In this document: positions 3,282 through 38,666 of the stretch, piece after piece
Layout of the letters: each line of letters starts with the position of its first letter
Position numbering within the stretch: the first letter of the stretch is position 1
Made by a program: the position numbers and the translations under genes
From: Methylotenera sp. L2L1
Lineage (GTDB): Bacteria; Pseudomonadota; Gammaproteobacteria; Burkholderiales; Methylophilaceae
DNA: 64,000 bases
Assembly: GCF_000744605.1 (NCBI RefSeq)
Contig: NZ_JQMG01000001.1
Coordinates: 1,984,001-2,048,000 of the forward strand
Reading direction: 5' to 3'
The notes under the pieces: generated by a model
Told to the model about the DNA's origin: nothing
The model's database searches: none
The model's input: only the letters and a program-made list of their open reading frames with translations

Positions 3282-5090
3282 ATGTCTCGTAATTTAAGAA
3301 ATATCGCAATTATTGCCCACGTTGACCATGGTAAAACAACTATGGTTGATAAACTTTTACATCAAGCAGGTACATTTACATCTCATCAGACAGTGTCTGA
3401 GCGTGTAATGGACAGTGGCGATATTGAAAAAGAACGTGGTATTACCATTTTGGCAAAAAACACTGCGCTGAATTACGAAGGTACGCATATTAACGTTGTG
3501 GACACTCCAGGCCATGCGGACTTCGGTGGTGAAGTTGAGCGTGTATTAGGTATGGTGGATGGCGTTGTTCTGTTAGTAGATGCTGTTGAAGGCCCGATGC
3601 CACAAACACGTTTTGTTACTAAAAAAGCGTTGGCGCTAGGTTTGAAACCAATCGTTGTTATTAATAAAGTAGATCGTCCAGGTGCACGTACTGACTGGGT
3701 AGTGAATCAAACATTTGATTTGTTTGCTAACTTGGGTGCAACAGATGAGCAGTTAGACTTCCCTGTAGTATATGCGTCAGCAATCAATGGCTATGCTATG
3801 TTGGATATGAATAAGCCTAGCGATAACATGCGTGCTTTGTTTGAAACGATTTTAAGTCATGTAGCGCCACCAGCTGGTGATAGCAATGCACCTTTACAGT
3901 TGCAAGTTTCAGCATTAGATTATTCAACTTACACTGGTCGTTTAGGTATTGGTCGCGTGACTAACGGTAAAATCAGACCTGGCCAAGCAGTGACTGTGAT
4001 GAATGAAACTAAACAAATCGCTACGGGTAAAATCAACCAAGTGCTTGGTTTCCGTGGTTTGGAACGTGTGCCAGTTGAAGAAGCTGAAGCTGGCGACATT
4101 GTAATTATTTCTGGTTTAGATGATATTGGTATTGGTTTCACTATCTGTGATCGTGAAAACCCAATTGGTTTGCCTCATTTAGGTGTGGATGAGCCAACAT
4201 TGACCATGGACTTTATGGTGAATACTTCACCATTAGCTGGTACTGAAGGTAAATTTGTGACTTCACGTCAAATTCGTGATCGTTTAACTAAAGAGCTTTT
4301 AGTTAACGTTGCTTTGCGTGTTGAAGACACTGAAGATGCTGACGTGTTCCGCGTTTCTGGTCGTGGTGAGTTGCACTTAACCATCCTGCTAGAAAATATG
4401 CGTCGCGAAGGTTTCGAGATGGCAGTAGGTAAACCAAAAGTTGTTTACCGTGAAATTAATGGCGAAAAATGTGAGCCATATGAAATTCTTACTGTGGACT
4501 TAGAAGATGAGCATCAAGGTGCTGCGATGGAGGAATTAGGCCGTCGTCGTGGTGAAATGCAAAATATGGAGTCTGACGGTAATGGTCGTACACGTTTGGA
4601 ATATAGAATTCCAGCGCGTGGTTTGATTGGTTTCCAAGGTGAATTCTTAACGATGACCCGTGGTACTGGTTTGATGGGTCATGTGTTTGATGAATATGCT
4701 CCAGTTAAAGCTGATATGCCAGGCCGTCGTAATGGCGTGTTGATTTCAGCTGAAAATGGCGAGGCTGTGGCTTACGCGCTTTGGAAGTTGCAAGACCGCG
4801 GTAAAATGTTCTCAGTACCAGGTGACAAGTTGTATGAAGGTATGGTGATTGGTATTCACAGCCGTGATAACGATTTGATCGTGAACCCGATTAAAGGTAA
4901 GCAGCTGACTAACATTCGTTCATCAGGTACTGATGAGGCTGTACGTTTGATTACGCCAATTGCATTATCTTTAGAATCAGCAGTTGAGTTTATTGATGAT
5001 GACGAGTTGGTGGAAATTACCCCTAAAACGATTCGTATCCGTAAACGTTACTTGCTTGAGCATGAGCGTAAACGTGCATCAAAAGACTAA
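3282..5090 (+). CDS. typA: Translational GTPase TypA/BipA
   Basis: Ribosome-associated GTPase of the EF-G/LepA superfamily, needed for growth under stress and cold and for 50S assembly. The 602 residues match the usual TypA length. GTPase motifs: AHVDHGKT at residues 12-19, DTPGH at 74-78 and NKVD at 128-131. The rest matches the family beta-barrel, EF-G-like and C-terminal domains (for example [10 protein letters not shown]). The ATG at 3282 gives the conserved N-terminus [11 protein letters not shown]. It is monocistronic, followed by a strong intrinsic terminator, and divergent from the RNA helicase gene. Both neighbours fit a ribosome/RNA maintenance theme. Confidence 0.97.
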
Positions 5091-22849: not shown

Positions 22850-25408
22850 ATGAAATTACTTAGAGCGCTAACTGTTGCGCAGCGATTAATGGTGATTATT
22901 GCACTTGCGGTTGCTGTGGTTACAATACAAGCTGCAATTGGCTTGTTTGAGCTTAGCCAAGTAAGAACTAGCTTGCAATCTGTGTATCAGGATAGGATGG
23001 TGCCAGTAGAGTCGCTAAATCAGATTACCTTGAATATGTTGAAGAACCGTGCGCATTTAAATGCAGCATTAAGCCATTACAAAACAACGGTAGGTGAAGA
23101 TGGGCAGGTCCATGTTGAACTGGACGCTGAATACTCTGTTAAACAAGCTGATTATATTGAAAGTAAAATTCAAGAAATCAGTAGTATTTGGAATGCATAT
23201 TTACAAAATAATTTGACGCCAGAAGAGAAGCTTTTAGCTGATAAATTTGCTAAAAGTCGTGGTCAGTTCGTTGAGGCTGTACTAAAACCAGCAGTGATTC
23301 AATTACGCGCAAATAACTATGAGGCCTTGAAGCTTACGAATGAGCAGGCGCTTGATTTGTACGAGGCTGCTGAAGTTGATATGAAGGCGCTGCTAAAGTT
23401 GAACTTGGATATTGCGGCCAATGAATATATCAATGCATCTACTAATTATGACAGCGTGCGTTTATTGACGTTTTTTGGCTTAGCTTTAGCAATTTTAACG
23501 CTAGTTTGGTTAGGCTTCGCAATTACACGTTCAATTACCAAGGCATTGGGCGGCGAACCAGATACGATGTATGACACAGCGAAACGTATTGCATTAGGGG
23601 ATTTAGACTTTACTATTCCACTAGGTGCTAACGATCGTAGTAGTACGATGGCTGCCATGAGCACTATGCAAGCCAATATTAAGTTATTGATTTCTGATAT
23701 TGCAGTGCTTTCACAAGCCTCACAACAAGGACGTTTAGCTGCGCGTGCGGATGCTAGTCATCACCAAGGTGATTTCCGTAAAGTAGTGATGGGTGTGAAC
23801 GATACTTTAGATGCTGTGATTGGGCCGCTGAATGTCGCTGCAAATTACATGGATAGAATCTCTAAAGGTGACATTCCAACGAAGATTGTTGATCATTACA
23901 ATGGCGATTTTAATACCATTAAAATTAATCTTAATACATGTATAGACGCGGTTAATAATTTAGTTAGTGAAGCCATCAATTTAGAAAATGCTGCAGTAGA
24001 AGGGCGTTTAAATAATCGCGGTGATGTTACTAAGTATCAAGGTGACTTCCGTAAAGTTGTAGAAGGGTTTAATAACTGTTTAGATGCAGTGATTGATCCG
24101 TTAAATGTAGCTGCTGGTTATGTAGAGAACTTTGCTAAAGGTAATATTCCAGCCAAAATTACAGATGATTACAATGGCGATTTTAATATTATTAAAAACA
24201 ACTTAAATGCATGTGTTGATGCTTTAAGTCTATTGGTTTCAGATGCCAATATGTTGGCGCAAGCTGCGCAAAGCCATGAGTTGGATACACGTGCGGATGT
24301 ATCTAAGCATTGGGGTGATTACAGAAAAGTAGTTGAAGGCGTCAATGGCACACTAGATGCGGTCATGCAGCAAACTGCAGCAGATGCGGCAGAAAAAGCG
24401 CAAGAGGCGCAACTGCTGTCAGATGCTGTAGACGAAACTCAACTTATTATTGAAGGCGCCAAAGCAGGAGATCTGAGCAGCCGTGTATCCCTAGATGGAA
24501 AAACAGGCGCAATTGCTAGCTTGTGTGATGGTGTAAATGCGCTGATGGATAAGATGACTGAAGTTATCATCCAAGTGCGTGAGGCTGGGGAGACAATTAA
24601 TACTGCCGCTGGTGAAATATCTTCAGGTAACAACGACCTTTCAAGCCGCACCGAACAGCAAGCATCAAGTCTGGAAGAAACAGCTTCTAGCATGGAGCAA
24701 CTTGCCTCAACAGTAAAACAGAATGCTGAGAACGCTAAACAAGCGAACCAGCTGGCTAGTGCAGCCTCGGGTGTTGCAGTCAAAGGTGGCGATGTGGTTG
24801 GTCAGGTTGTCAATACCATGAATGCTATCAATCAAAGTGCACATAAGATTGAAGATATTATCTCTGTGATTGACGGTATCGCCTTCCAAACAAACATTCT
24901 AGCCCTTAACGCAGCCGTTGAAGCGGCAAGAGCCGGTGAACAAGGCCGTGGATTTGCGGTTGTAGCAGGTGAAGTGCGCAATCTTGCTCAACGATCAGCC
25001 TCAGCAGCTAAGGAAATTAAAGAGCTGATTTCGGACTCTGTGAATAAAACTGCAGAGGGCACTAAGCAAGTTGAAAATGCAGGCGCCACCATGCAAGAGA
25101 TCGTTACTTCGGTTCAGCGTGTGACAGATATTATGGGTGAAATTACAGCCGCTTCAATCGAACAAAGTGCCGGTATTGACCAAGTAAATAATGCGATTAC
25201 CAGCATGGATGAGGTGACACAACAAAATGCGGCCTTGGTTGAAGAGGCTGCTGCGGCTGCCGAATCTCTGGTTGATCAGGCAGTTGGCTTAATGGATACA
25301 GTCAGTGCGTTTAAGTTGAGTGGTGGTTTGGGCCTACAAAACAGGCAAAATTTAAGAACGATTGCTCCGCCAGCACGAATAACAGGGATGGCACCACGTC
25401 TAAGTTAA
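22850..25408 (+). CDS. Methyl-accepting chemotaxis protein with HAMP-like array
   Basis: Transmembrane receptor of 852 residues: helix near 14-32, a periplasmic helical-bundle sensor to about 200, second helix near 203-222 ending [11 protein letters not shown], then a long run of HAMP-like repeats. Three repeats contain [12 protein letters not shown] or close variants. The signalling domain has the invariant hairpin [33 protein letters not shown]. Unlike the next two receptors it ends in MAPRLS and has no C-terminal xWxxF tether for CheR/CheB. The intergenic gap after cheW is 179 bp, so it may have its own promoter. Confidence 0.93.
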
Positions 25409-25741: not shown

Positions 25742-28255
25742 ATGATTACAGCAGCAAACAGTCGAATAGATCCTTGGGCAACTAGCGCAGACAAACTAAT
25801 GACTTGGACGTTAGTGATGTTGCTGGCTATCAGTTTTTTTATAGGGTTTTCTAACGGCACACAGTTTGAAACTTTTGTCGTTGGTGTTCCTGCGTTACTA
25901 ATACCATTATTACTCGTTAACATGCTACCTGGTGCGGTGGTGACTAGGATTGTGATTGCAGTGGCTTTTATGGTGTTCTCTGCACTTCTTATTCAGCAAA
26001 CACATGGTATGAGTGAGGCTCACTTTGCCATTTTCATTTTATTGGCTTTTTTGCTGCATTACCGTGACTGTAAGCCAATTTTCGCTGCAGCATTAGTGGC
26101 TGTAGTGCACCATATAAGTTTTAACTCACTCCAAGCCCATGATGCTGGATTTTATGTATTTCAACTGGGCGCAAATAATAAGCTGCTACTAATACACACA
26201 TTAGCTATTGTGCTTGAAACTGCGTTTTTAATTGTGATTGCTAATAGCTTCCGTAAAGAAGCCAATATGCTTGGAGGCTCGTCTGCTGATGTTGTGAATA
26301 TTGCAAGACAGTTAGCAAATGGCCATTTAAATATGGCAATAGAGGTTGATGCGAAAGACACATCTAGCGTTAAGTCTGCGCTCAAGTTAATGTCAGCAAG
26401 CTTAGCAACAACATTAGCTCGCATTGAAAACATGGCACTTGAGCATAAAAAAGGTAACGTAAATGCGGTGGTTGATTTAGAAGGACTTAATGGAAGCTAC
26501 CATGCAATTGCAGAAAAAATCAACGCCACGCTAGTCGCACAATCTAATTTGGTGCAAAGCGTTACTGAAAGCGTGATTGGTTTTTCAGGTGGCGATCTCG
26601 ATAAGTCTTTCGAAAAGTTACCAGGGAAACTAGGCTTTGTTCATGAAGCTATTGAACAGCTTCGTGCCAATGTGAAAGGCATTATTGAAGACATTACAGA
26701 AATGTCCCAAGAGCATGAAGCTGGCAATATTGATGCCACAATAGATGTCACTAAGTACAAGGGCTCGTACGCACAAGCCGTGGTAGCTGTGAATGCGATG
26801 GTAGGATCCCACGTACGTGAGAAAGAAGAAGTGACGCAAGTGATGCGAGCGTTAGGAGATGGTGATTTTGACGTACAAATTCAACAATACCCTGGTAAAA
26901 AAGCGGAAATCAACAAGAACCTAGACCGCCTCAAAGGCAAACTAAAAGGCGCAGTAGACTCAGTTAAATGGGTGACGAACGAACATGCACAAGGTAACAT
27001 TGACATGAGCCTACATGCACACCTATTTAAAGGCGGCTTCTCTGAACTAGCCGCAGCAGTCAATGCGATTGTTGCTGGACAACTGGAACTAACAGAAAAA
27101 GCCCTAGCCTGTGTTAAAGCCTTTGGCGAAGGTGACTTTGATGCCCCATTAGAAAAATTCCCAGGCAAAAAAGTATTCGTGAATGAAGCCATTGAACAAG
27201 TACGTACCAACTTAAAAGCCCTAAACGAAGATGCACAATTACTAGCAGACGCCGCACATGCTGGCCGTGTCACAGTACGTGCTGACGCTAACAGGCACCA
27301 AGGCGACTACCGTAAGATTGTGAACGGCATGAACGAAACGCTAGAAATGATCGTTGGACCGATCGTCACCGTTCAACAATCGGTTGAAACCATCAACACC
27401 GCAGCAAGAGAAATTGCACAAGGCAACGCAGACCTATCACGTCGTACAGAAGATCAAGCGGCCTCACTAGAAAAAACCGCTGCCAGCATGGAAGAACTCT
27501 CTTCAACCGTGAAACAAAATGCCGACAACGCTAAACAAGCCAACCAACTAGCCTCAGCTGCCTCAGGTGTTGCGGTCAAAGGTGGTGTAGCCGTGTCAGC
27601 AGTCGTCAGCACCATGGCAGAAATCAACGAAAGTGCCAAGAAAATTGAAGACATCATTAGCGTGATTGACGGCATTGCCTTCCAAACGAACATCTTAGCG
27701 TTGAACGCAGCGGTTGAAGCAGCAAGAGCCGGTGAGCAAGGTCGAGGATTTGCGGTTGTTGCAGGTGAAGTCCGCAACCTAGCACAACGCTCAGCTTCAG
27801 CAGCCAAAGAAATTAAAGAACTGATTACAAACTCAGTGAACAAAACAGCAGAAGGCACCAAACAAGTAGAAACGGCTGGCGACACCATGCAAGAGATCGT
27901 CAGCTCAGTCAAACGTGTGTCAGACATCATTGGTGAAATCTCTGCAGCCTCACAAGAGCAAAGTGTTGGTATTGAACAAGTGAACGAAGCCATCATGAAA
28001 ATGGATGACGTTACACAACAAAACACAGCACTAGTTGAAGAAGCGGCAGCGGCTGCAGAATCGATGATGGAGCAAGCGGACGAACTAATGAATGCGATTA
28101 GTGTATTCCAGCTAGGCACACATGGCGAAAGCCAAGCACCACGCAACGTGCCTAAAGTGAATGTTGCAAGTAAAGTGGCTAGTATTGTGAGACCAGCCCC
28201 TGTCAAATTGAGTGTAAAAACCAACTCAGATGATGGTGATTGGGAAGAGTTTTAA
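25742..28255 (+). CDS. Chemoreceptor with six-helix membrane sensor
   Basis: Methyl-accepting chemotaxis protein of 837 residues. The sensory part has no sizeable periplasmic domain but about six membrane helices in residues 20-167, with histidines and an HHISF motif next to YRDC inside the membrane region, so ligand or redox/energy sensing may occur within the bilayer. HAMP-like repeats follow, then the signalling domain ([23 protein letters not shown]). The C-terminus DWEEF fits the xWxxF pentapeptide that tethers CheR and CheB. From 26798 on the DNA is identical to the next receptor gene. Confidence 0.93.
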
Positions 28256-28326: not shown

Positions 28327-30951
28327 ATGCAAATGACTGTTGCAAGAAAAATGTTATTAATAACATTGATTTCTGTATTAGGTTTAGTAGGTTTGTTAAC
28401 GCTAAATATTTTCCAGACCGACTCTGTATATAAAGACACTAATTATGCAAATGAAAATATAGTGCCTAGTGTCATTAAACTTGATGAAATGCGATATAAA
28501 TTCAATACGCTACGTATCAGGGTTGCTAATCACACGTTGATTAAGGATGATGCAAAAATGGCAGAAGTTGAAGCCGCTATTAGAAAGCTTCAATCTGAGT
28601 TGAAAGACATTACAGAGACATATGTTAGTTTTATTTCAGATGAGCAAGAAAAGCGCCTGTTAGAAGCGGATGTGGAAGGTTTAAATGCGTATTACTCACG
28701 TATGGAGCCAATACTAGATGCGTCTAGAACGAACCAAAAAGAATTAGCGCATGAACTATATATCGCCATCCGTACTCCAGCAGAAAAGGCTAATGATGAT
28801 ATAGCTAGCCATATGAGCTATAAAGTTGAACTAGGTCAGAAATATGCCAATGATGCATTAACGGTAAAGCAACACGCGACAAGACTTTCTTTAGTGATGG
28901 GCTTATTAATCGTACTCGCTACCATTATCCTTGGTGTTTTCATTACACGTAACTTACGTAAACAATTAGGTGGAGAGCCAAATGATGTTGCGAAAATTGC
29001 GAATGATATCGCCAATGGTGATTTAAATAGTGCAATTAAAATTAACGCTGATGATCGTTCAAGCTTGATGGCTTCAATGTTCACCATGCAACAGACATTA
29101 AAAACTGTGATTGAAGAGCAAAGCACAATGTCTGCACAAAACAAGCTTGGTAATATTAGTGCACAAATTGACGCTGCAAAATTCCGTGGTACTTATAAAA
29201 CCATGGCTACGAATATCAATGAAATGGCATCTAATCAAGCTGATGTGATGCGTAAAGTGACGGCTTGTATTGCTGAGTTTTCTAAAGGCAATTTTGATGA
29301 GCCATTAGAGCGTTTCCCTGGTCAACGTGCTTTTATTAATGAGCGTGTAGAGCAGCTACGTATCAACATTAAAACCTTGATTGCTGAAATGCAAAATATG
29401 TCTCAGCAGCATGATTTAGGTGAAATTGACGTAGAAGTTGATGTGGCTAAATTTACTGGTACTTACGCTGAGATGGCGCAGTCATTAAATAAAATGGTAG
29501 GATCCCACGTACGTGAGAAAGAAGAAGTGACGCAAGTGATGCGAGCGTTAGGAGATGGTGATTTTGACGTACAAATTCAACAATACCCTGGTAAAAAAGC
29601 GGAAATCAACAAGAACCTAGACCGCCTCAAAGGCAAACTAAAAGGCGCAGTAGACTCAGTTAAATGGGTGACGAACGAACATGCACAAGGTAACATTGAC
29701 ATGAGCCTACATGCACACCTATTTAAAGGCGGCTTCTCTGAACTAGCCGCAGCAGTCAATGCGATTGTTGCTGGACAACTGGAACTAACAGAAAAAGCCC
29801 TAGCCTGTGTTAAAGCCTTTGGCGAAGGTGACTTTGATGCCCCATTAGAAAAATTCCCAGGCAAAAAAGTATTCGTGAATGAAGCCATTGAACAAGTACG
29901 TACCAACTTAAAAGCCCTAAACGAAGATGCACAATTACTAGCAGACGCCGCACATGCTGGCCGTGTCACAGTACGTGCTGACGCTAACAGGCACCAAGGC
30001 GACTACCGTAAGATTGTGAACGGCATGAACGAAACGCTAGAAATGATCGTTGGACCGATCGTCACCGTTCAACAATCGGTTGAAACCATCAACACCGCAG
30101 CAAGAGAAATTGCACAAGGCAACGCAGACCTATCACGTCGTACAGAAGATCAAGCGGCCTCACTAGAAAAAACCGCTGCCAGCATGGAAGAACTCTCTTC
30201 AACCGTGAAACAAAATGCCGACAACGCTAAACAAGCCAACCAACTAGCCTCAGCTGCCTCAGGTGTTGCGGTCAAAGGTGGTGTAGCCGTGTCAGCAGTC
30301 GTCAGCACCATGGCAGAAATCAACGAAAGTGCCAAGAAAATTGAAGACATCATTAGCGTGATTGACGGCATTGCCTTCCAAACGAACATCTTAGCGTTGA
30401 ACGCAGCGGTTGAAGCAGCAAGAGCCGGTGAGCAAGGTCGAGGATTTGCGGTTGTTGCAGGTGAAGTCCGCAACCTAGCACAACGCTCAGCTTCAGCAGC
30501 CAAAGAAATTAAAGAACTGATTACAAACTCAGTGAACAAAACAGCAGAAGGCACCAAACAAGTAGAAACGGCTGGCGACACCATGCAAGAGATCGTCAGC
30601 TCAGTCAAACGTGTGTCAGACATCATTGGTGAAATCTCTGCAGCCTCACAAGAGCAAAGTGTTGGTATTGAACAAGTGAACGAAGCCATCATGAAAATGG
30701 ATGACGTTACACAACAAAACACAGCACTAGTTGAAGAAGCGGCAGCGGCTGCAGAATCGATGATGGAGCAAGCGGACGAACTAATGAATGCGATTAGTGT
30801 ATTCCAGCTAGGCACACATGGCGAAAGCCAAGCACCACGCAACGTGCCTAAAGTGAATGTTGCAAGTAAAGTGGCTAGTATTGTGAGACCAGCCCCTGTC
30901 AAATTGAGTGTAAAAACCAACTCAGATGATGGTGATTGGGAAGAGTTTTAA
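28327..30951 (+). CDS. Methyl-accepting chemotaxis protein with 4-helix-bundle sensor
   Basis: Receptor of 874 residues. Residues 8-28 form the first membrane helix, then a periplasmic 4-helix-bundle-type sensor to about 185, a second helix near 190-210, HAMP with KQLGGEPND, more HAMP-like repeats, and the signalling domain. The final about 485 residues are identical to the previous receptor, including the DWEEF end that should bind CheR/CheB. Thus the pair differs only in input domain. Starts 71 bp after its neighbour. Confidence 0.94.
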
Positions 30952-31001: not shown

Positions 31002-31103
31002 GTTAGCGCACAGCTAACTTTAGTAATTTTAAGATAGGGTAAGGTGGATGAGTGTAGCGTTGTCCACCATATGTAAGTAAAAATTGGCGGTAACGCTACA
31101 CTC
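31002..31103 (+). promoter_or_regulatory. Structured leader of the fae homologue with competing hairpins
   Basis: Three dyads precede fae. First, GTTAGC-GCACA-GCTAAC (31002-31018). Second, GGTGGA (31043-31048) with TCCACC (31063-31068), 14-base loop. Third, GAGTGTAGCGTT (31050-31061) with AACGCTACACTC (31092-31103), a 12-bp perfect pairing. The second and third share bases and cannot form together, as in attenuators. A 10-codon ORF overlaps them. Whether this is an RNA switch or a protein operator cannot be decided by eye. Confidence 0.5.
31048..31080 (+). CDS. Possible leader peptide upstream of fae homologue
   Basis: ATG 31048 opens a 10-residue ORF, MSVALSTICK, ending TAA at 31080. AGGG lies 8 bases upstream and AAGGTGG directly upstream. 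It overlaps both arms of the two competing hairpins, so its translation could set which one forms. The peptide ends Cys-Lys, residues that react with formaldehyde; any sensing role is speculation. Confidence 0.3.
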   Translation: MSVALSTICK

Positions 31104-31165
31104 GACCGTCAAGTGTAACAAAGTAGTTAATTTTGAAATTTATTTAGAAGTTCTAGGAGACTTAA

Positions 31166-31732
31166 ATGGCTGTTATTGATCGTGTATTAATTGGTGAAGC
31201 ATTGGTGATCGAAGATCGTCCAGATGGTAGTGGTTTGGATCTTAAAAATGTTGCTCACATTGACCTAATCATGGGCCCACGTGGTAGCGCTGCAGAAGAT
31301 GCATTTTGCCGTACACTAACTGATCAAAAAGAAGGTGTGAATGGTTTGTTAGCTATCGTTGCTCCTAATATGATGGTAAAACCAAACACAGTAATGTTTA
31401 ACAAAGTGACTTTGAAAAACACTAAACAATCATTGCAAATGTTTGGCCCAGCACAACGCGGTGTTGCGATGGCTGTGATGGATTGCGTTGCAGATGGCAC
31501 AATTCCAGTTGAAGAAGCTGATGACGTATTCATTTCTGTTGGTGTATTTATTGACCAAACTGCAGACATGGATGACCGTATTCAAGATTGGAACTACCGT
31601 GCTACTAAACAAGCAATCAAAAGCGCAATCGCACGTGAGCCAAAAGCTGCTGATTTGTTGAAAGTTTATAAAGATTCTGCACATCCTTTTGCTGCAAAAG
31701 AAGGCAACAGAAGAGCAACAGATAAGGCATAA
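31166..31732 (+). CDS. fae: Formaldehyde-activating enzyme (Fae) homologue in chemotaxis operon
   Basis: Fae condenses formaldehyde with tetrahydromethanopterin in methylotrophs. The 188 residues follow the family closely: IGEALV start, AHIDLIMGPRGSAAE with the catalytic histidine (His31; His22 in the Methylobacterium enzyme, by recalled alignment), KPNT, MFNKVT, MFGPAQRGVAMAV, EEADDVFISVGVFI and the HPFAAKEG end. Differences: a 9-residue insertion before His31, MMVKPNT where typical Fae has LPCKPNT, and VFIDQ where it has VFIHW. These suggest a divergent paralogue. It lies between three receptor genes and cheR, so I infer a role in formaldehyde or C1 sensing or in protecting the chemosensory system. 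Catalytic activity is untested. Confidence 0.88.
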   Translation: MAVIDRVLIGEALVIEDRPDGSGLDLKNVAHIDLIMGPRGSAAEDAFCRTLTDQKEGVNGLLAIVAPNMMVKPNTVMFNKVTLKNTKQSLQMFGPAQRGVAMAVMDCVADGTIPVEEADDVFISVGVFIDQTADMDDRIQDWNYRATKQAIKSAIAREPKAADLLKVYKDSAHPFAAKEGNRRATDKA

Positions 31733-32113
31733 GGTAATTTGTAGTTAAGTAATAAGTAAGTTGTGATGTGGAGCAATGTTTTAAGATGGAAAATGTCAGA
31801 TAGTGCCAGTTTTAATTAAATGGCTTTCTTGATATTTACATCTTGCATTGCTACCTTGTCATACAGCATCAAATAATTAAGATAGTGAATGTTTTACGCG
31901 GAGATTAATCGCTGATTAAAGTGGTTAAGCTTTAATATAGCTCCGTTGGGTATGTTGATATTGTCCATAAATAGTCAAAAAATTAAGTAAGCAGTTAACT
32001 GCAACATAATTAATAAAAAATAAAATTAAGAGTGCCCAAAGCATATTGCTAAAGCGCTTTGTACCACATTGGTACAGTAAGTGACTGACAATAAATTACG
32101 TGGTGAATATCTA
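31733..32113 (+). promoter_or_regulatory. Intergenic region between fae homologue and cheR
   Basis: 381 bp before the preferred cheR start. It contains three perfect dyads: GCAGTTAACTGC (31991-32002), AAAGCGCTTT (32051-32060) and TGTACC-ACATT-GGTACA (32060-32076). They could be operators or mRNA hairpins for the cheR-cheD-cheB genes. No obvious terminator follows fae. Confidence 0.45.
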
Positions 32114-32998
32114 ATGTTTAAAAAAGAGCAGCATGATGAGGGGCGAGAGTTTAACTTTACTGCTCAAGACTTTGCCAGAGTACGTCACTTAATTTACCGT
32201 CATGCAGGTATCTCACTATCAGAAGCTAAGTCGGATATGGTTTATAGCCGTATTGGGCGAAGACTTCGCGTCCTAGGTGCTACATCATTTAAGCAGTACT
32301 TGGATAACCTTGAAAGTCAAAACGATACTGCCGAATGGGAAGCATTCACGAATGCACTAACCACGAATTTAACGTCGTTTTTTCGTGAAGAGCACCACTT
32401 TCCAATACTCGCAGACCATCTGCTAACACTAAAAAAACCGATTCGTATCTGGTGCTCTGCGGCATCTACCGGTGAAGAGCCTTACACAATTGCAATGACC
32501 GCATGTGAAGCGTTTGGTAGTTTAAATCCACCAGTTGAAATTATAGCCACAGATATTGATACCAATGTATTGTCTACAGCATCTCGTGGAATTTACCCTT
32601 ATGAGCGCGTGAGTAAGCTTTCGGATGCGAGACGTAAGCGCTTTTTTTTAAAAGGCACGGGTCCTAATGAGGGTTCTGTTGCAGTAAAAAAAGAGCTAAA
32701 AGAAATGATTACTTTCAGCCAGCTTAATTTGTTGGATGAAAACTGGGCGTTACAAGAGCCTTTTGATGCAATATTTTGTAGAAATGTCATGATTTATTTT
32801 GACAAACCTACACAGTCTAAAATTTTAAGTCGATTTGTGCCGTTAATGAAATCTCACGCATTACTATTTGCAGGGCATTCCGAGAACTTTCTTTACGTAT
32901 CGGATGCGTTTCATTTACGTGGTAAGACAGTCTACACATTAGGTGATAGTAGCCATGTAAAGCGTTCTAATAATCTGATTAAAGAGAGATCTTTATGA
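32114..32998 (+). CDS. cheR: Chemoreceptor methyltransferase CheR
   Basis: SAM-dependent enzyme that methylates receptor glutamates. From ATG 32114 (GGTGA 7 bases upstream) it has 294 residues; GTG 32081 would add 11. N-terminal helical CheR domain (FNFTAQDFARVRHLIYRHAGI) and catalytic domain with IRIWCSAASTGEEPYTIAM, IIATDIDTNVL and FDAIFCRNVMIYF. It overlaps cheD by 4 bp. The DWEEF tails of two receptors in the same cluster are its likely docking site. Confidence 0.95.
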   Translation: MFKKEQHDEGREFNFTAQDFARVRHLIYRHAGISLSEAKSDMVYSRIGRRLRVLGATSFKQYLDNLESQNDTAEWEAFTNALTTNLTSFFREEHHFPILADHLLTLKKPIRIWCSAASTGEEPYTIAMTACEAFGSLNPPVEIIATDIDTNVLSTASRGIYPYERVSKLSDARRKRFFLKGTGPNEGSVAVKKELKEMITFSQLNLLDENWALQEPFDAIFCRNVMIYFDKPTQSKILSRFVPLMKSHALLFAGHSENFLYVSDAFHLRGKTVYTLGDSSHVKRSNNLIKERSL

Positions 32999-33603
32999 GT
33001 ATGTTGGAAGAGGAAATTTCAACAACCCTATATTTTGACCGAACTTTTGATTGTGAAGCTGCAAAGATAGCGCCTGGTGAATACTACTTTACTGATAAAG
33101 ACATGGTCATTGTGACAGTGTTGGGATCATGTGTTTCTGCCTGCATCAGAGATAGCAAAACAGGAGTAGGTGGTATGAACCACTTTATGTTGCCTGATAG
33201 TGCTGCTACAGATAAAGACAGCCCTGTTTCTGAGTCTATGCGTTATGGTACCTATGCCATGGAGGTTTTAATTAACCAGTTGCTGCGCAATGGTGCACGT
33301 CGTGAGAATTTAGAGGCTAAGATTTTTGGTGGTGGTAACGTGCTGAAAAGCTTTACGACCACGAATGTTGGTGATCGCAACGCTATTTTTGTAAGAAAAT
33401 ATCTGAATGCTGAGGGGATACGCATTACAGGTGAAGATTTGTTAGACATCTATCCTAGAAAAGTTTATTACTTCCCTAAAACGGGTCGAGTTTTAGTGAA
33501 AAAACTGAAGCAAATGCATAATGACACCTTGTTTAAACGTGAAGAGGTTTACGCAAGCAAGCTTAAAACGGCAGATGTCGCTGGTGCAATTGATTTATTT
33601 TAA
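32995..33603 (+). CDS. cheD: Chemoreceptor glutamine deamidase CheD
   Basis: CheD deamidates receptor glutamines and can modulate CheA/CheC-type partners. The 202 residues include the catalytic cysteine in TVLGSCVSACIRD, a histidine in GGMNHFMLPD and the AKIFGGGNVL loop. The start overlaps cheR (ATGA). It ends GAIDLF, similar to the GEIDLF end of the short CheZ-like protein at 18517. Confidence 0.95.
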   Translation: MSMLEEEISTTLYFDRTFDCEAAKIAPGEYYFTDKDMVIVTVLGSCVSACIRDSKTGVGGMNHFMLPDSAATDKDSPVSESMRYGTYAMEVLINQLLRNGARRENLEAKIFGGGNVLKSFTTTNVGDRNAIFVRKYLNAEGIRITGEDLLDIYPRKVYYFPKTGRVLVKKLKQMHNDTLFKREEVYASKLKTADVAGAIDLF

Positions 33604-33642: not shown

Positions 33643-34713
33643 ATGAAAATTAAAGTACTTGTTATTGATGACTCAGCACTGATTCGTAGTTTACTCACTG
33701 AGATTATTAATGATCAAAAAGATATGATAGTCGTAGGTGCTGCACCAGATCCACTAATCGCACGTGAAATGATCAAGCAATTAAATCCTGACGTACTAAC
33801 GCTTGATGTTGAAATGCCGAAGATGGATGGCTTGGACTTTTTAGAAAAACTAATGCGTTTACGCCCAATGCCAGTTGTGATGGTGTCTACGTTGACCGAG
33901 AAAGGTTCGGAAATCACCATGCGTGCGTTAGAGTTGGGCGCAACAGATTTTGTGACCAAACCTAAAATGTCAATTACCGAAGGTATGCGTGAGTATACCG
34001 AAGAAATTACCGACAAAATACGAGCTGCTTCTCAAGCTAGAGTTTCTTCACCTAGCCGCCATGCCGTTGCTGGAAATGCTGAGAATCGCCCATTGCAATT
34101 ACGTAATCCACTGATTAGTAGTGAAAAGCTGTTAATTATTGGGGCTTCTACCGGCGGTACCGAAGCAATCAAATCGTTTTTGTTGCAAATGCCATCAGAT
34201 TGCCCTGGTATATTGATTACACAGCATATGCCTGCAGGATTTACAAAATCTTTTGCAAATAGACTAAACTCTTTGTGCCAAATATCCGTTAAAGAAGCAG
34301 AGGGCGGTGAGCGTATTCTACCTGGGCATGCTTATATAGCCCCAGGTGATAAGCATTTGCTGTTGGCAAGAAGTGGTGCAAACTATGTGACAGAGCTGAG
34401 TGATGCGCCACCAGTGAATCGTCATAAACCTTCTGTGGATGTGTTGTTTGATTCTGCGGCATTACATGCAGGTAAAAATGCTATCGGTGTAATCTTAACT
34501 GGAATGGGTAAAGATGGCGCAGTAGGTATGGCTCAAATGAAGAATGCAGGTTCATATAACTTTGCTCAGAATGAGGAGAGTTGTGTGGTGTATGGCATGC
34601 CAAAAGAGGCAGTAGCACATGGTGGTGTCGATGAAGTGGCACATTTGAATGAGTTGCCAAAATTAGTGCTTAATCATTTAGTGACCAATAACACTCGTGC
34701 ATTACGTGTGTAA
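33643..34713 (+). CDS. cheB: Chemotaxis methylesterase CheB
   Basis: Response-regulator methylesterase that removes receptor methyl groups. 356 residues: receiver domain with acidic Asp9-Asp10 pair and phosphoacceptor Asp55 ([10 protein letters not shown]), linker near 130-155, and a catalytic domain with [11 protein letters not shown] (Ser), TQHMP (His) and [11 protein letters not shown] (Asp). It begins 39 bp after cheD. Confidence 0.97.
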
Positions 34714-34878: not shown

Positions 34879-35277
34879 ATGGCAAATACAAATACTAAAT
34901 TTCTAGTTGTGGATGACTTTTCTACGATGCGTAGAATTGTTCGCAACTTGCTTAAAGAGCTGGGCTATACCAATGTTGATGAGGCTGAGGATGGGGTTGC
35001 TGCGCTGAGTAAACTGAAAGGTGGTGGGTTTGAGTTTGTTGTATCAGACTGGAATATGCCTAACATGGATGGTTTGACATTGTTGCAAAATATTCGCGCA
35101 GATGCTGAGTTATCTAAACTTCCAGTATTGATGGTGACCGCTGAAGCTAAAAAAGAAAATATTATTGCTGCAGCACAAGCTGGCGCTAATGGTTACGTAG
35201 TAAAGCCTTTTACAGCGGCTACGCTTGATGAAAAGTTATCAAAAATATTTGAGAAGCTTGAGAAAGCTGGGGCTTAA
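34879..35277 (+). CDS. cheY: Chemotaxis response regulator CheY (motor-binding type)
   Basis: 132-residue receiver closely resembling enterobacterial Che[25 protein letters not shown], phosphoacceptor Asp57 in [11 protein letters not shown], Thr in MVTAEA, Lys in VKPFTA. It lies 2 bp before cheZ, its phosphatase. This is the likely switch-binding CheY of the two in the window. Confidence 0.96.
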
Positions 35278-35279
35278 CT

Positions 35280-35969
35280 ATGACTAGCGAAGCCACACAG
35301 CAACAAGCCGCAAGTGTTGATCCTTCAGTTGGGCTGTCATCGAGTGATGAAATTCTTAATCGTGTAGGCCATGTAACGAGAACATTGCATGATAGTTTAA
35401 GTGGTTTAGGGCTAGATAAGATATTAGAGCAAGTAGCACAAGATATTCCAGATGCACGTGATCGTTTGGCGTATGTTGCACGCATGACTGAGCAAGCTGC
35501 TGAGCGTGTTTTGAATGCAACTGACGTGGCGATTCCATTGCAAGAAGAACTTGCTGCCGGTGCAACTGCATTGCAACAGCGCTGGACAAATGTGATGGGT
35601 GAACCTTCGCTAAAGAGTGAATACAATCTGGCCGCTAATGAAACATTAACCTATTTAACAATGGCAGGAAAAAACACTGCGGAAACCAAAGCCTTATTGA
35701 TGGATATCATGATGGCGCAGGATTTCCAGGATTTGACAGGGCAAGTCATTAAAAAAATTACTGGCCTCGCACAAGAGTTGGAGCAACAGTTGGTGCAGTT
35801 ACTGATTGACTTCTCGCCGGCAATTCCTAAAAAAGATACGGAAACAAGTAAAGCTGACGCTGGTGATAACTCATCGCTACTGAATGGCCCGCAAATTGAC
35901 CCAGATGCTGTGGATGTGGTTGCTAGTCAAGAGCAGGTTGATGACTTACTTGATAGTTTGGGATTCTAG
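35280..35969 (+). CDS. cheZ: CheY-P phosphatase CheZ
   Basis: Dephosphorylates CheY-P. 229 residues, helical, with the catalytic signature QDFQDLTGQ (Asp151, Gln155) and the C-terminal CheY-binding tail DDLLDSLGF, separated by a flexible linker. Start ATG 35280, 2 bp after cheY. End of the chemotaxis cluster. Confidence 0.96.
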   Translation: MTSEATQQQAASVDPSVGLSSSDEILNRVGHVTRTLHDSLSGLGLDKILEQVAQDIPDARDRLAYVARMTEQAAERVLNATDVAIPLQEELAAGATALQQRWTNVMGEPSLKSEYNLAANETLTYLTMAGKNTAETKALLMDIMMAQDFQDLTGQVIKKITGLAQELEQQLVQLLIDFSPAIPKKDTETSKADAGDNSSLLNGPQIDPDAVDVVASQEQVDDLLDSLGF

Positions 35970-36142: not shown

Positions 36143-36688
36143 CTAATTTGCTGTCGCTTGTAAGTTTTTTAAATCATCAATGATTTGCTGAGAGTGGTTT
36201 GAAACATTCACGTCATGGTAAATTTTGACTACTTTTGAGTTCGGGTCAATTAAAAAAGTATAACGTTTTGCAATTTTAGTAAAGATTAGGTTGGTAAGTG
36301 CATGATAAGTGTTTGCGACACTACCATCTATATCCGCCAGCAAGGTGAATGGTAGGTGATATTTTTCTGCAAACTTCTGGTGAGAGGCTTCTGAGTCAAC
36401 GCTAATTCCAATTACCTTGGCATTCAATTGCTCTAATTTAGATAAATCATCTCTAAAGTTGCAAGCTTCTTTGGTGCAGCCGGGTGTGTCATCTTTTGGG
36501 TAAAAATAAAGGACTACATATTTTCCCTTGTAATCTGAGAGCGAGTGGTAGCTGCCTTTGGTATCTTTTAATCCGAATTCAGGCGCATTTTCGCCGATAG
36601 TTAAACTTGGTTGCATCGATGCGTAATGGCGATAGCCTAAGAGTGCAACGAGTATGATTGCTACATAGAATAAAACCTTAATTAACAT
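36143..36688 (-). CDS. Membrane-anchored peroxiredoxin (Bcp/PrxQ type)
   Basis: Thiol peroxidase, 181 residues. An N-terminal hydrophobic helix (residues 2-19) probably anchors or exports it, placing the domain in the periplasm; classic Bcp is cytosolic. The peroxidase core has YPKDDTPGCTKEAC: peroxidatic Cys71 and resolving Cys76, five apart as in the PrxQ class. VVLYFYP and KRYTFLIDPN also fit. Transcribed toward cheZ, convergent, with the terminator between. Confidence 0.9.
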   Translation of the reverse strand: MLIKVLFYVAIILVALLGYRHYASMQPSLTIGENAPEFGLKDTKGSYHSLSDYKGKYVVLYFYPKDDTPGCTKEACNFRDDLSKLEQLNAKVIGISVDSEASHQKFAEKYHLPFTLLADIDGSVANTYHALTNLIFTKIAKRYTFLIDPNSKVVKIYHDVNVSNHSQQIIDDLKNLQATAN

Positions 36689-37022: not shown

Positions 37023-38666
37023 ATGAGCTTGTGCGATAGAATAACGAACATGAGTGATGAAGTGAAACTACAAACAAACGTAACCAACCATAAAGGCTCT
37101 AATTACTACTATTATCGAGCCAGAGTCCCTACAGACTTAGTGTCTCATTATGGCCGAGCAGAAGTAATGTTCTCATTACGAACCAAAGACCCGCGAGAAG
37201 CCAACACAAGAGCCACGATAGAAAGACTTAAGCTTGACCAAGAGTATGCACATATCAGAGCAATGAAAGCATCCTCTAAGCGTGGTGACATTAGTGATGA
37301 TGAGTTGGAGCGGATAGCGCTTATATGGTCTGCTGAACAACTAGAGGAGGATGAAGCTGACAGGCTGGAAGGTCTTCTCTTAGATGATGATTTCTATGAG
37401 GCAACTTTGCTTGATACCAGTTTTCTTTCTTCATCTACAAGTGAATGGCTATCTCGTGGAAATCATGAGCACATAACCTCAATAGTTGACCATGAGCTGG
37501 AAAGACATGGCATCACACTTGATAAGAACAGCCAAGCATACAGGAAAGCTTGTAGCCACTTTCTCAAGGCTGGTAAGCGTCTTTCGGAGTCACTGAAGCT
37601 AAGGAACTCAGGTGAGATTGTAGACACGCCAGTAATTGATAGAAGCCCTGTAAAGTCTAAGTCTGAAGACACTTTAGAGTTTCTTTTAAATTATTGGAAG
37701 CTGCAGGCTAATCCAGCACTAAAAACATTCAATGAAGCAAAGAAAATAATTGAAAAGATAGCTGCTCAGACGGAGCATATGCAAGCGTCTAGGGTTTCTA
37801 AAGGAGACATAGTCACCTACAAAGACAATCTACTTAGTAATGGACGCAGCTCTGGAACGATTGGGAGGCATCTAAACTTAATCAATGCAATATTTAACTT
37901 AGCTGTAGCCAATGATAAGTTGAGTAGCAATCCAGCAAAAGATGTAAAAGCTCCTTTGGAAAAGGGAAAGAAAAAGCCACGAATACCATTTAGTATTGAG
38001 GAGCTGAAGCTTATATTTGCATCTCCAATTTATACCGCTAATCATAGACCCAGAGGCGGTGCGGGTGAGGCTGCATACTGGCTACCTTTAATATCCTTGT
38101 GGACAGGCGCACGACTTGGGGAGATTGGTCAGCTACTTGTTGACGATATAGCTGAGGATAGCGGAGTAAAGTACATACACATAACCACGGAGGTGGGTGA
38201 TGAAGAGGATGAAGATACCCCTCAGAAAACACTCAAAAACAATTCCTCAAAACGAAGAGTACCTATACATCCAGAGTTAGTGCGTTGTGGCTTTTTAGAT
38301 TACGTGTCTTCAATGAAGGATGCAGGTCATTCAAGACTATTCCCGCTTCTTAAGTCTTCACCTACTAGACCACTCACGGCTGCCTTCTCTCAGTGGTTTG
38401 GCAATCATAAGCGCAAAGGGCTAGGCATCACCGATAAGCGTAAAACCTTTCACTCCTTCAGGCATGGCTTCAAGGATGCTTGTCGCGAGTGTCTAATTCC
38501 AATTGAGCTTCATGACAAACTAACAGGTCATAAGAGTGCTGCCTCCTACAGCTCCAGTGTTGGTGATGGCTATGGTGCTGAGAACTATCCTATTAAACCT
38601 TTAAACACAGCCATGCTAATGCTTAGGTATGAGGGCTTAGACTTATCCCACCTATACATCAAGTAA
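37023..38666 (+). CDS. int: Tyrosine recombinase (integrase) of the tRNA-Arg element
   Basis: Site-specific recombinase, 547 residues. The N-terminus has an integrase-associated pattern (YYYRARVPTDLVSHYGR, LRTKDPREA). A SAM-like core-binding domain lies around 220-300, and the catalytic domain has Arg in WTGARLGEI (about residue 361), HSFRHGF (about 476), TGHKS (about 501) and a tyrosine near 516-521 (YGAENY). Start ATG 37023; ATG 37050 is a possible alternative and neither has a clear ribosome site. It lies 100 bp from the tRNA, the usual arrangement. Confidence 0.93.
   Translation: MSLCDRITNMSDEVKLQTNVTNHKGSNYYYYRARVPTDLVSHYGRAEVMFSLRTKDPREANTRATIERLKLDQEYAHIRAMKASSKRGDISDDELERIALIWSAEQLEEDEADRLEGLLLDDDFYEATLLDTSFLSSSTSEWLSRGNHEHITSIVDHELERHGITLDKNSQAYRKACSHFLKAGKRLSESLKLRNSGEIVDTPVIDRSPVKSKSEDTLEFLLNYWKLQANPALKTFNEAKKIIEKIAAQTEHMQASRVSKGDIVTYKDNLLSNGRSSGTIGRHLNLINAIFNLAVANDKLSSNPAKDVKAPLEKGKKKPRIPFSIEELKLIFASPIYTANHRPRGGAGEAAYWLPLISLWTGARLGEIGQLLVDDIAEDSGVKYIHITTEVGDEEDEDTPQKTLKNNSSKRRVPIHPELVRCGFLDYVSSMKDAGHSRLFPLLKSSPTRPLTAAFSQWFGNHKRKGLGITDKRKTFHSFRHGFKDACRECLIPIELHDKLTGHKSAASYSSSVGDGYGAENYPIKPLNTAMLMLRYEGLDLSHLYIK

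Follow-up and report, generated by a model that had tools for sequence, protein, structure and literature searches.

The che-linked fae of Methylotenera and Methylophilus is probably a metabolic gene that moved into a chemotaxis cluster

Introduction

Genes for the formaldehyde-activating enzyme (fae) within a conserved chemotaxis cluster were described for Methylotenera and other Methylophilaceae in 2013 (PMC3728764, which credits Lapidus et al. 2011 for the linkage) and 2014 (PMC4109929). The arrangement of the locus studied here is the same, and the statement of its initial annotation that no Fae–chemotaxis system was known to have been described is hence corrected by the literature. In these accounts (PMC3728764/PMC4109929), the authors recall their proposal of 2008 that Fae might act in sensing, signaling, or regulation, and the che-linked fae of M. 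mobilis is described as less transcribed than mmol_2056. For Methylovorus and Methylobacillus, fae is placed in the H4MPT cluster—the pathway being called auxiliary—and ecotypes of M. methylotrophus are said to carry one Fae, with one ecotype lacking a true Fae (PMC4109929). H4MPT genes are reported for all Methylophilus genomes and flagella for all but two Methylotenera strains (PMC8399692, PMC6794327). A further system that ties C1 metabolism to chemotaxis is MtpA, the formaldehyde-taxis receptor of Methylobacterium aquaticum 22A. However, MtpA is a cytosolic receptor and not a Fae, and formaldehyde taxis of strain 22A is described as independent of Fae, as a fae1 fae2 hgd triple mutant still shows it (PMC10613068).

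As far as seen in the open-licence literature, the linkage accounts of PMC4109929 and PMC3728764 make no mention of an empty old site, a leftover terminator, terminator loss, a tail, a codon-usage contrast, or survival of fae after the loss of chemotaxis. It is these details that are new here, whereas the linkage itself is already known. Both the arrangement and the open suggestion of Fae signaling date from 2013 or earlier, and the new evidence makes this question testable: the same gene can be compared in three natural states, namely in a metabolic cluster, in a chemotaxis cluster, and after chemotaxis genes were lost.

The fae gene and its surroundings

The window—the whole stretch of 64,000 nucleotides of Methylotenera sp. 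L2L1 that was analyzed—carries a fae gene whose product scores 206.7 bits against PF08714 (cut-off 27) and 196.9 bits against TIGR03126 (cut-off 118.05), in agreement with its initial annotation as a clear Fae relative. For comparison, we used the solved structures 1y5y and 1y60, which we take to be Fae of Methylobacterium extorquens. The window Fae is close in sequence to 1y5y (E 1.5e-53), and its His31 aligns with the 1y5y histidine, so that the catalytic-type histidine is indeed retained. It differs from 1y5y by nine extra residues that precede His31 (in gaps of 6 and 3), by GVFIDQ in place of GVFIHW, and by a C-terminal tail; the insertion as well as MMVKPNT and VFIDQ had been described correctly. 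The histidine of the VAHIDL motif, presumably the catalytic residue of Fae, is invariant across the 23 rows of our alignment A1. Fae2/Fae3-type homologues (names from PMC4109929) belong to the same Pfam Fae family but lack, unlike the window Fae, a histidine at the aligned place of this motif. A Pfam search with the window Fae (E up to 0.001) returned only Fae, and no che domain or array-binding domain.

The host genome is a single contig of 2,641,989 bases with three Fae homologues, and the window gene is hence not its only fae. The second histidine-type Fae (L001, at 540425) has no insertion and reads GVFIHW—we name this form B-type—and the third (L003, at 910070) is of the Fae2/Fae3-type without the histidine motif. 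Mch, a marker of the H4MPT pathway, is also present in the host genome.

Three chemoreceptor (MCP) genes with starts at 22850, 25742, and 28327 lie upstream of the window fae, and cheR, cheD, cheB, cheY, and cheZ lie downstream (Table 1). Profile matches thus confirm the annotated location between three chemoreceptor genes and cheR-cheD-cheB. As to the annotated term "chemotaxis operon", an operon is a guess for the window genome: the spacer from the MCP stop to fae measures 214 nt, and that from the fae stop to cheR 348 nt or 381 nt, depending on whether a GTG or an ATG is the start.

Table 1 Features of the window at and around the fae gene
Feature	Positions	Strand	Remarks
typA-like gene	3282..5090	+	Named by eye; blast match to the L132 gene; adjoins fae in L036 and L132, both of which lack the intervening flagellar/che region
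MCP gene immediately 5' of fae	28327..30951	+	C-terminus DGDWEEF
Leader with inverted repeats	31040..31117	+	GAGTGTAGCGTT (31050-31061) / AACGCTACACTC (31092-31103); also 31040-31048 / 31063-31071
fae (formaldehyde-activating enzyme orthologue)	31166..31732	+	188 aa, ATG start; Pfam and TIGR03126 matches; His31 aligns with the 1y5y histidine
Coding stretch of residues 12-29	31199..31252	+	Holds the 9-residue insertion relative to 1y5y; common to insertion-type Methylophilaceae Fae
Short C-terminal tail after HPFA	31694..31729	+	AKEGNRRATDKA; short version of the tail (12-61 residues) that most che-linked copies bear
cheR	32081..32998	+	Real start possibly a later ATG
cheD	32995..33603	+	Profile match
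cheB	33643..34713	+	Profile match
cheY	34879..35277	+	Profile match
cheZ	35280..35969	+	Profile match
Peroxiredoxin-like gene	36143..36688	-	Named by eye; its match directly adjoins fae in L036, L059, L132, L134

Besides fae, the surroundings bear some features of their own. Two adjacent MCP genes are identical over their last 1458 nt, stop included (26798-28255 and 29494-30951), while their sensor parts differ, which we read as a putative recent gene conversion or duplication. The N-terminal part of the second MCP (25742-26250) appears membrane-rich by eye and contains several histidines, with no Pfam family above cut-off. Just past the peroxiredoxin gene beside the che cluster, a 547-aa ORF (37023-38666) resembles, by eye, a tyrosine recombinase.

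Distribution and descent of the linked gene

The initial annotation had proposed a search of Methylophilaceae for fae near che genes, and such linkage proved to be conserved. Our census comprised 87 Methylophilaceae genomes of at least 95% completeness. Among the matches listed, Fae is present in 72 of these, and Mch in the same 72; CheD is found in 50 and the CheA dimer domain in 56, some of the latter being weak matches to other kinases. As read by eye from the tables, Fae lies at most 2 kb from CheD in all 31 CheD-positive genomes of the two genera (17/17 for Methylotenera, 14/14 for Methylophilus). Other Methylophilaceae genera contribute 19 CheD-positive genomes, and the matches listed for these include no Fae within 20 kb of CheD; the closest distance outside Methylotenera and Methylophilus, again among the matches listed, is about 23 kb (G010). 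In a sample of 399 genomes of the order, 36 carry Fae, 10 of them Methylophilaceae, and 21 of the 26 others also carry CheR. Independent fae–che linkages elsewhere in the order were rejected, since Fae lies within 10 kb of CheR on one contig in 0/21 of these sampled genomes with both genes (by eye; some are on fragmented contigs, which could hide cases). As far as seen, the linkage is a property of a single clade.

The Fae tree that we calculated holds 104 rows (112 before dropping rows identical over 178 residues), with Fae2/3-type rows and those below 150 residues excluded. The che-linked rows do form one clade as the annotation had asked—45 rows with a support of 100/94, nested in the insertion-type Fae of Methylophilaceae. 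Forty of these are linked and five are scored unlinked: L012, whose contig ends after fae, the formerly linked L077, and L036, L059, and L115 from a branch without che genes beside fae. The linkage label changes three times on the tree, which may represent one gain and two losses. B-type Fae constitutes a separate group (support 100/99). The che-linked fae is an orthologue of the metabolic fae found in the H4MPT/RuMP cluster of sister genera. L012 itself (JAKQJQ010000243.1) is a contig with MCP-fae whose Fae is 91% identical to that of the window; its assignment to a Bacteroidota MAG is probably a binning error.

Across 80 compared loci, the insertion is common to most unlinked Methylophilaceae Fae, together with M/L-M-V/T/C/A-KP and VFID motifs, and the H4MPT-cluster Fae of Methylobacillus, Methylovorus, and others bear the insertion and both motif changes with small variations. 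A shorter stretch takes the place of the insertion in L075, L076, and the second tandem copies L051 and L052, and the gammaproteobacterial rows L078-L083 have none. Since insertion and motif changes occur in genes outside chemotaxis clusters, they lend no support to a new job at the che locus, of which the annotation had taken them as signs; a recruited paralogue with a locus-specific insertion was rejected on the same ground.

The vacated site

In other genera, fae sits between hpi and a hisA-like gene: leaving L131 aside, this holds for every fetched locus that shows both flanks (41/41), although some genomes appear under a named as well as an unnamed record and so enter the count twice. The names hps, hpi, and hisA-like were assigned by eye, and mch was identified with Pfam. 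In the host genome (L131), hpi and the hisA-like gene are only 74 nt apart with no fae between them. We compared 15 Methylotenera stretches, L131 and 14 more, of which 10 (L131 and 9 others) show both flanks: in 10/10, the gap measures 58–152 nt and holds no fae. The five stretches without both flank genes were not counted, and no fae match occurs in them either. By eye, each of the ten gaps contains a GC-rich hairpin whose end is rich in T, and the same kind of hairpin is found 3' of fae in other genera. Hence, the simplest reading is that fae departed from this site and its terminator remained. The empty site is established for Methylotenera; for Methylophilus, the view was restricted to the mch region of one genome (L138).

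Terminator and spacing

At the new site, a terminator is mostly missing. A hairpin with a T-run lies between fae and cheR in 4/39 linked loci, where shuffled sequences predict 1.0, but in the 150 nt after fae in 30 of 40 other loci (1.6 expected), the scanned lengths being unequal with medians of 122 nt and 153 nt, respectively. For unlinked Methylophilaceae loci alone the count is 24/31, which omits six gammaproteobacterial loci (five matches) and three ex-linked clade members—L036 with a match, L059 and L077 with none. In the window, the 100 nt that follow fae gave no terminator match, and neither did the + strand between 30800 and 32200. This scarcity of terminators after linked fae suggests read-through from fae into cheRDBYZ.

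Ten Methylophilus-type loci show only 51–57 nt from the MCP stop to fae and 38–69 nt between fae and the earliest start that cheR could have, and the fae–cheR gap reaches up to 520 nt (L025). No MCP match is present in the fetched upstream DNA of L016, L018, L020, L021, L023, and L025 (only 2 kb for L025), and fae–cheR persists in all six. A promoter scan of the fae region gave no more sites than in shuffles.

Signs of a working enzyme

Among the matches listed, the che-linked fae is the sole intact histidine-type Fae in 21 of the 31 linked genomes; unfetched matches were hereby sorted by score and match length, and fetched low-score matches were all of the Fae2/3-type. This count comprises 20 genomes and G037 from the Methylophilus group, whose B-type fae lies in two overlapping pieces (L176/L177) and is apparently broken, the che-linked fae being whole. 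An intact B-type Fae besides the linked copy is found in nine linked genomes (G000, G048, G049, G050, G062, G066, G071, G032, and G036), and G061, which is 6% contaminated, carries a second insertion-type Fae. The dN/dS of the Fae body is 0.020–0.038 in five groups.

Codon usage was assessed as CAI with weights from the ribosomal region of each genome. The window fae reaches 0.827, the 97th percentile of 88 ORFs, next to 0.856 for hps and a ribosomal-region median of 0.747; the che and MCP genes of the host range from 0.58 to 0.68, and its B-type fae has 0.598. Linked fae genes elsewhere score 0.743 (G033), 0.783 (G048), 0.777 (G030), and 0.622 (G071), the last barely exceeding cheZ with 0.619. 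Among 39 linked named loci, 36 could be compared, and fae has the highest CAI of fae, cheR, cheD, and cheB in 35 of these; the weights for this comparison came from a single genome of each genus, Methylotenera and Methylophilus. The codon usage of fae is thus mostly that of a highly expressed enzyme, unlike that of its che neighbors.

Seven Mch-positive genomes (G045, G046, G055, G070, G073, G076, and G083; L116, L119, and L156-L160) have, among the matches listed, a Fae2/Fae3-type protein without the histidine motif as sole Fae match. They fit the ecotype without true Fae that is described in PMC4109929.

fae where chemotaxis was lost

Eight Methylotenera genomes have no CheD match. Of these, G059 keeps fae-cheR-cheD at a contig end (L135) and G067 has CheA, which leaves six chemotaxis-less genomes, defined by no CheD and no CheA domain below E 1e-10. 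A dedicated chemotaxis protein is expected to be absent from such lineages. Insertion-type Fae is kept in 4/6: it is whole in G052, G053, and G058, and cut by the contig end in G051. It was not found in G055 and G070, both of which are in many contigs. The gene order in G052 (L132) is DEAD-box gene, typA, fae, and peroxiredoxin. The window has these DEAD-box, typA, and peroxiredoxin genes (identified by eye) on the two sides of a 31-kb stretch with flagellar, che, and fae genes; from this comparison, the flagellar and che genes on either side are gone in G052 while fae is present. In G053 (L077), a 150-nt remnant of an MCP signaling domain lies just 5' of fae. The CAI of fae is at the 93rd percentile in G053 and the 94th in G058, and at the local median in G052, where another genome's weights were used.

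The C-terminal tail

Apart from the lost terminator, a gained tail sets the linked form apart. In 39 linked loci, the tails after the HPF motif comprise 4–61 residues, with at least 12 in 38/39, at least 31 in 26/39, and the shortest in L017 (4). Outside the linked clade, the tail exceeds 6 residues in one of 43 rows (the 48 rows of the unlinked list minus the window gene L002 and the clade members L012, L036, L059, and L077). This exception is L072, an unlinked Fae with mch upstream, which ends in ...SRRAEDN, a sequence similar to the start of the linked clade's tail. The window genome carries the short form only; long tails repeat a pattern like NRRxxDxA...AIxQMKxRN. A tail dN/dS of 0.04–0.26 argues for constraint. 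Used as a query, the tail matched only fae in 4 of 8 genomes, and gave 4 matches among 56 candidates in a large protein database, all of which are Fae (the search needs shared 5-residue words and similar length); the candidate idea of a tail common to another protein was hence rejected. In four tail-bearing relatives, Pfam returned only Fae above cut-off, and one sub-threshold match to Rpn9_C (E 0.6). An AlphaFold2 model of a tail-bearing relative predicts one long helix at residues 184-234 with pLDDT blocks of 57–74; its mean pLDDT is 70.1 with a weak core stretch at residues 63-81, and the model was used for the helical tail only. L077 retains the tail, with no che genes seen there and the MCP remnant remaining. 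The tail may serve in docking, which is the bold reading, or may be a drifting extension into intergenic space, the plain one.

Competing explanations

In the mechanism that we propose, fae would have moved, in an ancestor shared by Methylotenera and Methylophilus, from the mch...hps-hpi-[fae]-hisA-like cluster to the spot just 5' of cheR, with its terminator apparently left behind at the old site. The relocated Fae most likely continues to supply the H4MPT oxidation pathway by condensation of formaldehyde with tetrahydromethanopterin. At the new place, fae is usually preceded by a receptor gene and followed by cheRDBYZ without an intervening terminator, so that read-through from fae probably accounts for at least part of the che transcription. 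Any tie to chemotaxis would then consist in shared expression rather than in a dedicated sensor. We regard the core of this account—an ordinary metabolic fae that moved into a che cluster—as likely. It fits most of the evidence: the orthology, the empty old site in Methylotenera, the missing terminator, the codon usage, and the retention in four of six chemotaxis-less genomes. The direction of the move, the enzyme activity, the read-through, and the benefit of the arrangement are inferences. Counting against a relocated enzyme are the transcription in M. mobilis, the two genomes G055 and G070 without insertion-type Fae, the low fae CAI in G071 and G052, the tail, and the 520-nt gap of L025. 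A neutral variant shares the same core, so that the two likelihoods overlap: fae might have reached cheR by chance and stay because an important gene in a conserved cluster is hard to move, with no functional or regulatory link. The persistence of fae beside typA or prx where che genes are missing, the single clade of linked rows, and the 0/21 count elsewhere in the order speak for this variant. The absence of a terminator in 35/39 linked loci and the 51–57 nt gaps to the upstream MCP in ten loci, which point to a shared transcript, speak against it, as do the six loci without MCP match, in which upstream neighbors changed while fae–cheR stayed; altogether, we consider a purely neutral relocation rather unlikely.

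The initial annotation had suggested a paralogue recruited to sense, buffer, or report formaldehyde. In its strict form, a Fae copy without enzyme role would act purely as formaldehyde sensor or buffer in chemotaxis. The second histidine-type Fae of the host genome (L001), the lower transcription of the linked copy than of mmol_2056 in M. mobilis (PMC3728764/PMC4109929 accounts), and the lack of insertion-type Fae in two of six chemotaxis-less genomes are in line with it. This reading fails because the gene is an orthologue of the H4MPT-cluster fae; the slot in that cluster is empty in Methylotenera, the linked copy is the sole intact histidine-type Fae in 21/31 genomes among the matches listed, unlinked genes share its insertion and motif changes, its catalytic-type histidine is kept, its body is conserved (dN/dS 0.02–0.04), and its codon bias is mostly high. 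We hence deem it very improbable. More room is left for a moonlighting Fae that still makes methylene-H4MPT while its tail docks to CheR/CheD or the receptor array and thereby lets adaptation respond to formaldehyde load or H4MPT flux. The tail of at least 12 residues in 38/39 linked loci against a single such tail among 43 rows outside the clade, its apparent constraint, its matches to Fae only, its predicted single helix, and the linkage in 31/31 CheD-positive genomes would agree with such a role; a tail length of 4–61 with only the short form in the window genome, the persisting tail of L077, the lack of a Pfam domain in the tail, and the formaldehyde taxis retained by the 22A mutant (PMC10613068) would not, and we think this role improbable. 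The same doubt applies to the combined form, in which a metabolic Fae was captured by the che operon, gained the helical tail, feeds the H4MPT pathway, and tunes receptor adaptation to formaldehyde load via tail or shared expression; if true, metabolism-linked taxis would run via an enzyme in place of a receptor. The near confinement of the tail to the linked clade is not explained by metabolism alone. Together with the transcription in M. mobilis, it may keep a second, signaling role possible for the relocated enzyme, above all in genomes that also carry a B-type Fae. If tail or read-through matters, the locus shows how a metabolic enzyme becomes wired to behavior; if neither does, it is a clear case of a gene relocating without change of job.

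Leaders of linked and unlinked fae genes

In five M. mobilis-type genomes (window, L004, L005, L008, and L163), the fae leader could fold into one long hairpin or into two small ones whose loops carry 12-nt stretches complementary to each other. In L005, a change on one side of this pairing is matched on the other, and L008 and L163 have a mismatch. A REP-type repeat was rejected, as a genome-wide search that allowed up to 3 mismatches gave no second copy of the pattern, and a search of the leader for known RNA families gave one chance-level match only. An ancestral leader carried along in the move was likewise discarded, for the hairpin-rich Methylobacillus-type leader is not evident by eye in linked leaders. 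Among unlinked fae loci, L038, L045, L047, L049, L050, L051, L057, L058, and L060-L063 have a hairpin leader within 125 nt upstream. One of its hairpins combines a nearly constant AACAG loop with a varying stem and is preceded by TATAAT in several loci, which makes this leader a possible candidate for a regulatory RNA.
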